From assembly GCA_021736445.1 (NCBI GenBank), contig JAIPGA010000008.1:1-52104 (forward strand): a stretch of DNA of 52,104 nucleotides, written 5' to 3'. This document shows, one piece after another, positions 2,799 through 10,897 of the stretch. Origin of the DNA: Synergistales bacterium (lineage in GTDB: Bacteria; Synergistota; Synergistia; Synergistales; Aminiphilaceae). The notes beneath the pieces are model-generated. The model worked only from the letters and a program-made list of their open reading frames with translations, did no database searches and was not told the DNA's origin. Every line of letters begins with the position of its first letter. The first letter of the stretch is position 1. The position numbers and the translations under genes are program-made.

Positions 2799-3149
2799 TG
2801 GTGGAGGCGCGGGGAATCGAACCCCGGTCCGACAGAGGCCGATCGTGGAAGCTCTACAGGCTTAGTTCCCGCTTTGGTGTCGGTCCGGCACTCCCGGGAA
2901 CGGGATTGCCCAACCCAAGCTCCCTGATCTTAACCGGAAAGCCAGGAGCAGGGCTTCCCGGAGCAACCACCTTTTGTGACACTCACACTCCCACCGAGTG
3001 GTGCGGCGGGAGGGAGCGGGCTACATCAAACTATGCAGCCAGTGCGTAGTTGTCGTTGGCAACTATTTGTGATGCCGCTTGTTACGGGGTTGCGGCACCC
3101 CGACCTGCTCTTCCAGATCCTCCTTCTGCCGTCGAAACCAGTCGCCCCC
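2799..3149 (-). ncRNA. ssrA: Transfer-messenger RNA (tmRNA)
   Basis: One-piece tmRNA of 351 bases that rescues ribosomes stalled on broken messages. The 5' end GGGGGCG pairs with CGCCTCC before the encoded ACCA tail at the 3' end, forming the alanine-type acceptor stem. The 5' part has the tRNA-like GGTTTCGACGG and the 3' part the T arm GGGGTTCGATTCCCC. The tag frame reads GCC AAC GAC AAC TAC GCA CTG GCT GCA TAG, giving ANDNYALAA after the alanine brought by the tmRNA itself. It starts 12 bases after smpB and ends at a strong terminator, so smpB and ssrA are probably transcribed together. Confidence 0.97.
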
Positions 3150-3748: not shown

Positions 3749-3830
<82 letters not shown>

Positions 3831-8200: not shown

Positions 8201-8437
8201 GAAGCGACGAAAACCCTGGAAGACGGCACGGCGGTCGCCGGCTGTATACGGAACGGGGAGATCGGCCTGGTGGTCAACATCCCCAGGCAGGGCAACGACA
8301 GCTCTACAGCGGGATTCCGCCTCCGCCGACTCGCCGCCGAGTGGGGGGTTCCCTGCATCACCTCCATGGAGGTGGCGCGGGCCGTGTTCCCGGCCCTTTC
8401 CAAACGGAACGGAAGGTGTGGACCAAAAGCGGCATGA
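5255..8437 (+). CDS. carB: Carbamoyl-phosphate synthase large subunit CarB
   Basis: 1060 residues, full length. The two homologous ATP-grasp halves are both seen: SGPIQIGQGAEFDYSG at the N-terminus and SGPIRMGQGLEFDYCC at about residue 565. Each is followed by its own ATP-grasp segment with VIEVNPRASRSSAL and VIEANPRASRTVP. The last ~130 residues form the allosteric MGS-like domain. The ATG at 5255 lies six bases after AAGGGAGG and inside the end of carA. It makes carbamoyl phosphate from bicarbonate, ATP and the ammonia supplied by CarA. No other pyr or arg gene is adjacent. Confidence 0.97.
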   Translation: MCKADPATISSVLVIGSGPIQIGQGAEFDYSGSQACRVLREEGVRVIVHNCNPATIQTDRSSADAVYFRPPTEEAVVDILQREEPDGVIATMGGQHALNLLVSLEEKGLWEEHGVRILGTGAESVRNAEGRLAFRTAMQQAGQPVVESTYVNNTEEAIAFAAETGYPVVVRPDFTLGGHGGGTASSPEELRTLAEHGLAVSPTRQVLVERCLNGWREVEYEMIRDGSGNALCVCTMENIDPMGVHTGDSVVVAPNLTLTDRQNHRLRQAALDIVNHLDIRGACNVQFALHPDGGSYHVIEVNPRASRSSALASKATGYPIARIATKIALGRGLTELTNPVTGVSSALAEPALDYVVVKIPRWPFDKFPRASTRLGTSMKATGEVMAMGTTVVEALQKAFRSLELPLRLTDRLSSVPAREIEEGAATPSHKRLLYVTELLRRGYSPMEIRGWTGIQPYFLRQLAKLTEWEHRWSDGPPSPTRFREGKALGVGDAAMAALKGVTEDDIRTERKKHGIPTFQPVDTCAAEYPSATGYLYGTHLLHAPGETGESADRHDGESVVVLGSGPIRMGQGLEFDYCCVKAVEALQKIGYRPIMVNNNPSTVSTDFDITPVLYAEPVTYEDVMDIVEREHPLGVFGSFGGQTALKVARALDTSGVPLLGNSAAVVDIAEDRKQFARLLDDLGIPQPASDTATAADEALDKAERLGFPLMVRPSYVIGGRAMRVVRSPAELEGYLTEAVEASEDHPVLLDSFLKGVEFEIDAVCDGADIHVPAIIEHLDPAGVHSGDSIAMLPALSHKALHSTMIAYVRAISERLGLKGLLNVQFIVNEGTVYVIEANPRASRTVPIISKVTGVPMVELAVRVAMDEPLRRLTQETGPVECGNCAVKVPVFSTARLEGVEVAAGPEMRSTGESLGVASSMGDALADALEGAGWKRSAINGVLFSASEESKQDVLPLASSALDYGWEVYATAGTAALLEQWGLEATKTLEDGTAVAGCIRNGEIGLVVNIPRQGNDSSTAGFRLRRLAAEWGVPCITSMEVARAVFPALSKRNGRCGPKAA

Positions 8438-8455: not shown

Positions 8456-8484
8456 TTGTCAAGCCCCGGGAAAGCCATTACAAT
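8456..8484 (+). promoter_or_regulatory. Promoter of the AOR leader
   Basis: TTGTCA, 17-base spacer, TACAAT, starting about 20 bases after the carB stop. The expected start near 8491 leaves a leader of about 230 bases. Confidence 0.7.
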
Positions 8485-8487
8485 ACA

Positions 8488-8623
8488 GGTACCGACAAGT
8501 GCATACAGTAGACCTTCGACCTGTAGCGCCTCTCCGAGGGGCTGCGGGCGATAGGTGGCAGGAGCGATCCTGTCGCCCGCCGTGTTTTGCAAAGAAGGGG
8601 ACCCGACAAGTGGGTCCCCTTTT
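8488..8623 (+). promoter_or_regulatory. Structured leader (candidate riboswitch) upstream of AOR
   Basis: Between the promoter and an intrinsic terminator lie at least two clear stems: AGCgCCTC with GAGGGGCT (about 8527-8545), and a long hairpin GCGGGCGA...TCGCCCGC (about 8547-8582) with an internal GCAGGA/TCCTG helix and an unpaired TAGGTG. It does not carry the AAAGGTG core I know from the E. coli molybdenum-cofactor RNA, although GATAGGTG is close. The downstream tungsten/molybdopterin enzyme makes a cofactor or tungstate sensor plausible, but this is inference. Confidence 0.5.
8595..8623 (+). terminator. Intrinsic terminator in the AOR leader
   Basis: AAGGGGACCC pairs with GGGTCCCCTT around a seven-base loop, and TTTT follows. 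It lies about 100 bases before the AOR start, so it must be read through or act as an attenuator. Confidence 0.8.
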
Positions 8624-8722
8624 GTTGTACCCAGGCACAGAAAGGACAGTATGGGTGCGCATTTTTGCGCAGGGCAAACGGTTGTACAAACATCCGTTCG
8701 ATACTTCTTAGGGGGGACAAGT

Positions 8723-10897
8723 GTGATCGACAAGATGAAACTGCTCAAGGAATGGGACTACGAAGCGGTCGATGCAGACAGAGGCTATACGGGCAAAACG
8801 CTCTACCTCAATGTCGGCGACCAGCGTATGGAGGAAAAGCCCGTCACCGATGAAATGAAAGAGAAATTCGTCGGCGGCCGGGGTTTCGATCTCAGGCTGC
8901 TCTGGGACGCCGTCAACGAGAACACCAAGTGGGACAGCCCGGAAAACGAGATCGTCATCTCCGGCGGTCCGCTCTGCGGGATCACCCAGTATCCGGGAAC
9001 GGGCAAGTACTACGCCGCGTTCATCTCTCCGCTTTCCAACCAGGTCTACGACAGCAACTCCGGCGGCCACTTCGCCCCGCTCCTCAAGTTCGCCGGCTAC
9101 GACGCGCTGGAGCTGCAGGGGAAATCCGACCGGGACATCGTCGTCTTCATCGACGGCGACAACGGTAAGGTTCAGATCTACGAATCGCCCTTCGGTGACG
9201 ATGTCAATGCCTATACCGTCACCAAACCGCTCCACGAATACTTCGCCGGCAACGAAAACGAACTGCGCTTCGTCTCGGTCATCTCCGCCGGACAGGCCGC
9301 CAACCACAGCTACTGGGGCTGCCTGAACACCAGCTTCTACGACGTGAAACGCAAGGACTTCCGCCTCAAGCAGGCCGGCCGCGGTGGCGGCGGAACGGTC
9401 TTCCGGGACAAGAAGATCGCCGCCCTGGTGGTCCGGAAGCGCAACTGGACCGGTCAGAGCACCGGCCCCGAGGATCCCCAGGAACTCCAGAAACCCGGCG
9501 CCAAGATCAACAAGGAGATCTTCACGCTGGACAACAAGATGAACCAGATGCGCAAAGTGGGGACCACGCACCTCAACCAGATCATGAACACCTACCACCT
9601 GCTCCCCACCAATAACTACAAGTACGGCCAGCATCCCGACGCCTGGAGGATGAGCACCGACCACTACAAGCGGCTCTTCACCCAGAACATCCCCGACGGA
9701 TGCTGGATCGGCTGCACGCTGGCCTGCGCCCACGGCGTGGACCACTTCAAGCTCCAGACCGGCCCCTGGAAGGGCAAGGAGGTTCTGGTGGACGGTCCCG
9801 AGTACGAGACCGCCGCAGGCCTGGGCTCCAACATCGGCATCTTCGACCCCTTCTGGACCATCGAGGCCAACTTCTACGCCGACCATTACGGCATGGACAC
9901 CATCTCCCTCGGTACGGGACTGGCCTTCGTCTGCGAGTGCTACGAGAAGGGCTTCCTCAACAAGGAGATCACAAACGGCCTCAATCTCAACTTCGGCCAG
10001 ATGGACGACCTCATGGAGCTCATCCACCGCATGGGCGAAGGAAAAGACGAGTTCGCCAAGGAAGCCGCCAAGGGAATCAAGCACTTCAGCGAGACTGTCA
10101 TCGAGAAGTACGGCGCGCCCCGCGAGATCGTGGAGAAGTTCGCCATGCAGGGCCAGGGCGTGGAGGTCTCCGAGTACGTCTGCAAGGAATCGGTGGCCCA
10201 GTGGGGCGGCTTCTTCCTGACGCTGAAGGGCCCCCAGCACGACGAGGCCTGGCTGATCTTCATGGACCGGGTCAACAAACAGCTCCCCACCTTCGATGAC
10301 AAAGCCGAGGCGCTGCATTACTTCCCCAACTTCCGGACCTGGTTCTCCCTGGTGGGCCTCTGCAAGCTGCCCTGGAACGACATCGAACCGGCGGACAACA
10401 AGACGAAATACCCGCCCCAGGATGCCGCCAAGGTACCCGAGCACGTTGACAACTACGTCCGCATCTTCAAAGCCGTGACCGGACGGGACTTCGACAAGGA
10501 CGAGATGATCAGGCAGGCCGAGCGGGTGTACAACTACCAGCGCGTCTTCCAGCTCCGTATGGGCAGGGGGACACGGGCGGACCACAATATCCCCGACCGC
10601 GCCCTGGGACCCGTCTTCTACGAGGAATGGATGGCCCGTGCCAAGTACTACGACGAGGAGCTCGAAAAGGCCGGCATCGATCCCGAAGGCCTGAGTGTGG
10701 AGAAGAAGATCGAGAAGCTTCAGGAGCACCGCCACAAGGAGTGGGAGAAGCTCAAGGACGCCGTCTACAAACGCCGCGGCTGGGACAGAAACGGCATCCC
10801 CACCCTCGAGAAGCTGCAGGAGCTCGGCATGGACCTCCCCGAGGTCGTTGAGGTTGTCAAAGCCAAAGCGAATCCGGAGGACAAGTTCGAGGACTGA
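8723..10897 (+). CDS. Tungsten-type aldehyde:ferredoxin oxidoreductase
   Basis: 724 residues from a GTG start six bases after GGGGGG; ATG 8735 is an alternative. AOR-family enzymes oxidise aldehydes to acids, or reduce acids, using a tungsten bis-pterin centre and one Fe4S4 cluster, with ferredoxin as partner. Seen are the N-terminal GRGFDLRLLWD and SGGPLCGITQYPGTGKYY pterin-binding segment, the cluster cysteines Cys327, Cys331, Cys335 (CWIGCTLAC) and Cys547 in GLCKLPWN. The C-terminus is highly charged. The stop overlaps the start of the sulfur-carrier gene (TGATG), as expected for a coupled pair. The substrate cannot be told from sequence. The long antisense frame over this gene is a codon-bias shadow. 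Confidence 0.93.
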   Translation: MIDKMKLLKEWDYEAVDADRGYTGKTLYLNVGDQRMEEKPVTDEMKEKFVGGRGFDLRLLWDAVNENTKWDSPENEIVISGGPLCGITQYPGTGKYYAAFISPLSNQVYDSNSGGHFAPLLKFAGYDALELQGKSDRDIVVFIDGDNGKVQIYESPFGDDVNAYTVTKPLHEYFAGNENELRFVSVISAGQAANHSYWGCLNTSFYDVKRKDFRLKQAGRGGGGTVFRDKKIAALVVRKRNWTGQSTGPEDPQELQKPGAKINKEIFTLDNKMNQMRKVGTTHLNQIMNTYHLLPTNNYKYGQHPDAWRMSTDHYKRLFTQNIPDGCWIGCTLACAHGVDHFKLQTGPWKGKEVLVDGPEYETAAGLGSNIGIFDPFWTIEANFYADHYGMDTISLGTGLAFVCECYEKGFLNKEITNGLNLNFGQMDDLMELIHRMGEGKDEFAKEAAKGIKHFSETVIEKYGAPREIVEKFAMQGQGVEVSEYVCKESVAQWGGFFLTLKGPQHDEAWLIFMDRVNKQLPTFDDKAEALHYFPNFRTWFSLVGLCKLPWNDIEPADNKTKYPPQDAAKVPEHVDNYVRIFKAVTGRDFDKDEMIRQAERVYNYQRVFQLRMGRGTRADHNIPDRALGPVFYEEWMARAKYYDEELEKAGIDPEGLSVEKKIEKLQEHRHKEWEKLKDAVYKRRGWDRNGIPTLEKLQELGMDLPEVVEVVKAKANPEDKFED

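Follow-up and report, generated by a model that had tools for sequence, protein, structure and literature searches.

The AOR-family gene of this Synergistales window (the whole 52,104-nt stretch of DNA that was analysed) is preceded by a structured leader, which raises the question of what this RNA senses and how it acts on the gene behind it. The leader (8456–8722, plus strand, like all features below unless stated otherwise) fills the gap between the end of carB at 8437 and the GTG start of AOR at 8723. The gene (8723–10897) encodes 724 amino acids, matches PF02730 and PF01314 with 161 and 322 bits, and has a ribosome-binding site, AGGGGGG (8710–8716), recognized by sequence. A sigma-70-type promoter (8456–8484; TTGTCA at 8456–8461, a 17-nt spacer and TACAAT at 8479–8484) matches the consensus at 10 of 12 positions; one such promoter was found, as against 0.2 in shuffled sequences. 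The stretch 8488–8627 folds with −69.2 kcal/mol (z = −5.07), a stability that none of 200 shuffles equals. It includes an intrinsic terminator (8595–8627), in which AAGGGGACCC (8595–8604) pairs with GGGTCCCCTT (8612–8621) in a 10-bp stem, followed by TTTTGTTG. A strong promoter, a stem-rich leader RNA and a ten-base-pair terminator had all been proposed in a sequence-only reading of this DNA, and all three are borne out. The U-tract, TTTTGTT, is modest and short, weak U-tracts also occur in the relatives L082, L080, L092/L093 and L094, and a mechanical terminator scan did not report this terminator. The octamer GACAAGTG occurs three times within 230 bases (8494–8501, 8605–8612 and 8716–8723), one copy lying in the terminator loop and one at the AOR start; it is not kept in the relatives.

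Relationship to the Moco/Tuco RNA family

A default Rfam scan of the whole window returned only a tmRNA and a tRNA (2799–3149 and 3756–3830), both of them minus-strand features upstream of the genes for carbamoyl-phosphate synthase, and gave no match to the Moco RNA model RF01055; a scan of 321 bases gave no Moco match either. Weak matches to asX2, scr5239 and Acido-1 were discarded, all lying far below their cut-offs and scr5239 also on the wrong strand. Applied to a tight 128-base stretch of the window, RF01055 aligns over its full length (1–135) with 27.9 bits (E = 3.5e-5), below the curated cut-off of 36 bits, and the closest relatives exceed the cut-off (L009, 47.8; L010, 39.3; L016, 37.0 bits). 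This covariance search had been proposed in the sequence-only reading, alongside the claim that the leader fails to match the molybdenum-cofactor core, and it overturns that claim: the leader is a P3-less, diverged Moco/Tuco RNA. BLASTN of 188 Synergistota genomes turned up the leader in the family of the source genome and in three further families. A covariance model built from 11 relatives with the window excluded, R1, gives the window 84.3 bits; none of the 25 strong Synergistota members falls below 74.9 bits, and canonical copies mostly lie between 26 and 51.

P3 is deleted when L009 is aligned to RF01055, and the corresponding joiner in the window has 4 nt. The P3-less form is found in organisms that use the tungsten cofactor (Regulski et al., 2008; PMC2408646), and the linkage to Mo/W cofactor genes holds for the subtype, which precedes AOR operons and one formate dehydrogenase. 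The C-C/G-G of P5 that is conserved in RF01055 is not kept, all aligned subtype members having G-C/G-C, and we therefore file the subtype as a variant rather than as an ordinary RF01055 member. With this reservation, the leader very probably belongs to the Moco RNA lineage. In the open-access literature, the scope of our search, no work joins Moco RNA and AOR regulation; Regulski et al. refer to terminators and P3-less RNAs, without the ON platform or the CU:AG form described below (PMC2408646).

Homology also bears on the ligand. The sequence-only reading had guessed at a terminating riboswitch for either a tungsten pterin cofactor or tungstate; RF01055 homology and the conserved stems support the terminating riboswitch and the cofactor, and free tungstate fares worse. 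An unrelated class binding free tungstate, the alternative named there, would suit a downstream gene that needs tungsten. It is nonetheless very improbable, given the homology to RF01055 and the dependence of the E. coli member on MoeA, which means that its signal is not simply molybdate (PMC2408646); this requirement makes free tungstate a less likely ligand than the cofactor.

Aptamer fold and the proposed contact between P4 and P2

The aptamer domain (8513–8598), supported by RF01055, R1 and the minimum-free-energy (MFE) fold, comprises P1, P2, P4 and P5. P1 pairs CCUUC (8513–8517) with GAAGG (8594–8598), is 100% paired in 27 distinct sequences and shows changes on both sides. The P2 hairpin (8520–8548) contains an apical CU/AG tandem (8530–8531 with 8537–8538), and the P4 hairpin (8553–8578) is capped by a GCGA tetraloop (8564–8567). 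P5 (8579–8590) is formed by G8579–C8590 and C8580–G8589, the first pair being flipped relative to the canonical C-G. The linkers are GA between P1 and P2 and AAA between P5 and P1. Folded alone, these 86 nt adopt all four helices in the MFE structure, which lacks only the wobble pair that closes the base of P4. The TAGGTG described in the sequence-only reading as unpaired within a long hairpin does not form an unpaired loop: 8551–8556 run from the joiner between P2 and P4 into the base of P4.

In the 27-sequence alignment, which was fitted to the model and is hence biased toward the structure, 91.8% of cells pair, as against 43–54% when the partner is slid, and in 20 of the 30 pairs both partners have changed (score 0.421, versus 0.197 for shuffled and at most 0.169 for slid partners). 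A smaller MAFFT alignment, A2, agrees, with 10 pairs changed on both sides and a score of 0.259 versus 0.119 shuffled. Kept across Synergistota families and Chloroflexota and changed on both sides of 20 of its 30 pairs, the leader is real and beyond chance. A ligand-free element, either a constitutive attenuator or the terminator of carAB, would account for a position 3′ of carB and for the terminator within, yet the leader has its own promoter, and its aptamer covaries and is kept across unrelated upstream contexts; we regard this explanation as extremely improbable.

In the subtype P4 ends in a GNRA loop, mostly GCGA, P2 carries the CU:AG tandem at the matching place, and the 11-nt receptor is absent. 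In a survey of crystal structures, GCGA loops always occur with AG/CU receptors and GYAA loops with RG/CY (PMC3494683), a rule by which 8530–8531 and 8537–8538 are proposed as the helix receptor; exceptions to the rule that Moco RNAs have a GNRA loop on P4 and a receptor in P2 have been published (PMC2408646). In G176 and the copies from Chloroflexota, P2 carries CC:GG, and the loop is mostly GNAA. The third loop base and the receptor (GNGA with CU:AG, GNAA with CC:GG) agree in 29 of 31 copies (Fisher p = 2e-4, uncorrected for phylogeny, with phylum and type confounded). By analogy with the surveyed structures, the GCGA loop of P4 may dock on the CU:AG helix of P2.

Gene context and the expression platform

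Copies of the subtype number 31: 26 in Synergistota (25 strong ones and the divergent G176) and five in Chloroflexota. An AOR operon follows all 26 Synergistota copies; AOR comes first in some of these operons, and in others it is preceded by a ferredoxin-like subunit or by a radical SAM protein whose match to the tungsten-oxidoreductase maturase TIGR04317 falls slightly short of the cut-off. Two of the AOR-linked copies of the subtype have such a maturase before AOR. Four of the five Chloroflexota copies also stand before AOR (L339 among them, assigned by sequence) and one, L340, before a formate dehydrogenase, likewise assigned. The stems are kept before other AOR genes, as the sequence-only reading had asked to see. 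The controlled AORs are 22–37% identical between groups, and with identity as low as 22% the linkage cannot be put down to hitch-hiking on a single gene lineage. The source genome encodes four other AOR paralogs (G000 C78, C61, C16 and C67), all without the leader; only the window AOR has one. On the Thermovirga lienii plasmid pTLIE01 (L329), the 154 bases before an operon of AOR, MoaD and radical SAM genes contain no subtype leader.

The sample took in Synergistota, Chloroflexota and one further phylum, to which the Acidobacteria MAG G189 belongs; the 347 genomes of this further phylum yielded a canonical-type copy only and no subtype. A degenerate pattern scan of genome contigs found at least 119 stretches and is silent on distribution because R1 confirmed none of the 80 matches listed, most of them from GC-rich genomes. 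The one pattern match in IMG/VR (13.6 bits) was not confirmed either, and a regular-expression 'variant', L111, proved false, since it falls within coding sequence in an operon for tungstate transport.

RF01055 exceeds its cut-off in 91 of the 188 Synergistota genomes, and the source genome has four such copies besides the one in the window. Nearly all canonical copies inspected lack P3 and have a GAAA loop on P4 and the 11-nt receptor in P2. Among 81 of them, 44 precede genes for TupA-like proteins (tungstate binders), nine XDH-like genes, six a response regulator and two AOR. Since P3-less canonical copies also stand before genes for XDH-type molybdoenzymes and ModA, the absence of P3 alone does not prove tungsten. 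The first pair of P2 was dropped as a hallmark of the subtype, as it also varies in the canonical copies L048, L073 and L106.

The six response-regulator loci (L128, L148, L152, L153, L158 and L163) encode a DpiA-like protein, and cofactor control of a two-component regulator is possible there. Canonical copies L055 and L112 precede an FDDTD-motif protein (without a Pfam match in L055), and L053 and L138 (G043:C188, 5708–6089) are two divergent canonical copies back to back, an arrangement also seen in G042:C73. The Moco RNAs L134 and L167 have an extra stem and a flipped P5 before moeA-like genes, the L167 operon running on to AOR.

In each of the 31 subtype copies, the terminator hairpin is built at its base from the 3′ strand of P1 paired with a strand downstream; in the window, the terminator 5′ arm opens with 8595–8598, which also belong to P1. 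G176 is the weakest by the automatic search for this sharing, although its AAAGG pairs with CCTTT before a T run further on. The window terminator alone has −19.6 kcal/mol, and forcing P1 leaves it 7 bp and −10.5 kcal/mol, detached from the U-tract. In the canonical copies with strong terminators, by contrast, 54 of 58 terminators start after P1 and four share its 3′ strand. The 5′ arms of these canonical terminators show a tendency towards complementarity with the 3′ strand of P1 (mean z of 1.6, with 13 of 49 reaching p ≤ 0.05). We called platform type by terminator position, since a GU-permissive helix search could not tell the canonical platforms from the variant ones. The canonical copies look like OFF switches because their terminators lie beyond P1 and tend towards complementarity with its 3′ strand, as expected of antiterminators, and the subtype looks like an ON switch because its terminator shares bases with P1. 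We consider this ON logic of the subtype likely. The split would agree with the genes: in the presence of cofactor, uptake would be off and the enzyme on.

Proposed control of AOR and known systems

The strongly favoured reading is a cis-acting transcriptional riboswitch of a diverged P3-less Moco/Tuco subtype, specialised for AOR operons and ON with cofactor. Without ligand, GAAGG of P1 would be drawn into the terminator and transcription would stop before AOR. A tungsten (or molybdenum) pterin cofactor would bind the P2/P4/P5 junction, braced by the GCGA loop of P4 docked on the CU:AG helix of P2; the bound cofactor would hold P1 together, the terminator would lose its lower base pairs beside the U-tract, and AOR would be transcribed. 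The ligand is probably the tungsten rather than the molybdenum cofactor. Against the riboswitch reading stand the window score below the Rfam cut-off, the short U-tract, L340 before a formate dehydrogenase, and the four leaderless AOR paralogs.

For the Moco family, binding experiments with purified components could not be done, and across the family proof that a ligand binds directly is lacking (PMC2408646). The RNA might accordingly be read by a protein, a cofactor- or tungstate-binding regulator that stabilises P1, instead of by a small molecule. We consider this improbable: the RNA has a large and highly conserved junction instead of one lone hairpin, it has no linked partner gene, and no protein is known to take part when the E. 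coli member responds to cofactor synthesis (PMC2408646).

More credible, if still rather unlikely, is a changed ligand specificity within the same riboswitch family, for a particular form of tungsten such as the nucleotide-free bis-pyranopterin tungsten cofactor of AOR, which would set the subtype apart from canonical P3-less copies. It would explain the flipped P5 pair at a conserved junction and the near-exclusive AOR linkage beside canonical copies of the same genomes. However, one copy precedes a formate dehydrogenase, and the flip may belong to the ON platform. A Chloroflexota Moco RNA, L345 (1501–1600), has the flipped P5, yet also GAAA and the 11-nt receptor, and its ON-type terminator stands ahead of an operon for an iron-sulphur oxidoreductase; this combination suggests that the flip accompanies ON platforms. 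Only tentatively, then, would we propose a separate Moco-derived class, with altered specificity for the AOR tungsten bis-pyranopterin and ON output, beside canonical OFF switches; if true, one cofactor would repress uptake of its metal and activate its enzyme.

As the favoured Moco/Tuco riboswitch, the subtype would extend a poorly understood family, provide a natural pair in one genome (OFF for tungstate uptake, ON for a tungsten enzyme), and represent a natural swap of a GNRA–receptor contact. Whether such RNAs discriminate tungsten from molybdenum cofactor has been a question since 2008, and a subtype linked almost exclusively to AOR is a good test object. Because the subtype escapes the present Rfam model, the regulation of AOR goes without annotation in these bacteria.

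The Moco-II motif (RF01713), a candidate RNA from Proteobacteria named for molybdenum-cofactor genes (PMC2864571), had no match in any Rfam scan of the window or its relatives. The E. coli moaA Moco riboswitch is of the same family (19.3 bits with R1); unlike the subtype, it has P3 and GAAA with the 11-nt receptor, and the cofactor blocks translation (OFF). Closest are the P3-less (Tuco) RNAs of RF01055, with which the subtype shares the order P1-P2-P4-P5, GA between P1 and P2, an 11-bp P4 with a G-U foot, AAA between P5 and P1, and cofactor-related genes. It differs from them in the first P5 pair (G-C instead of C-G), in GCGA with CU:AG instead of GAAA with the 11-nt receptor, in a P1 3′ strand that is also a terminator arm (ON logic), in its link to AOR, and in scores at or below the Rfam cut-off.
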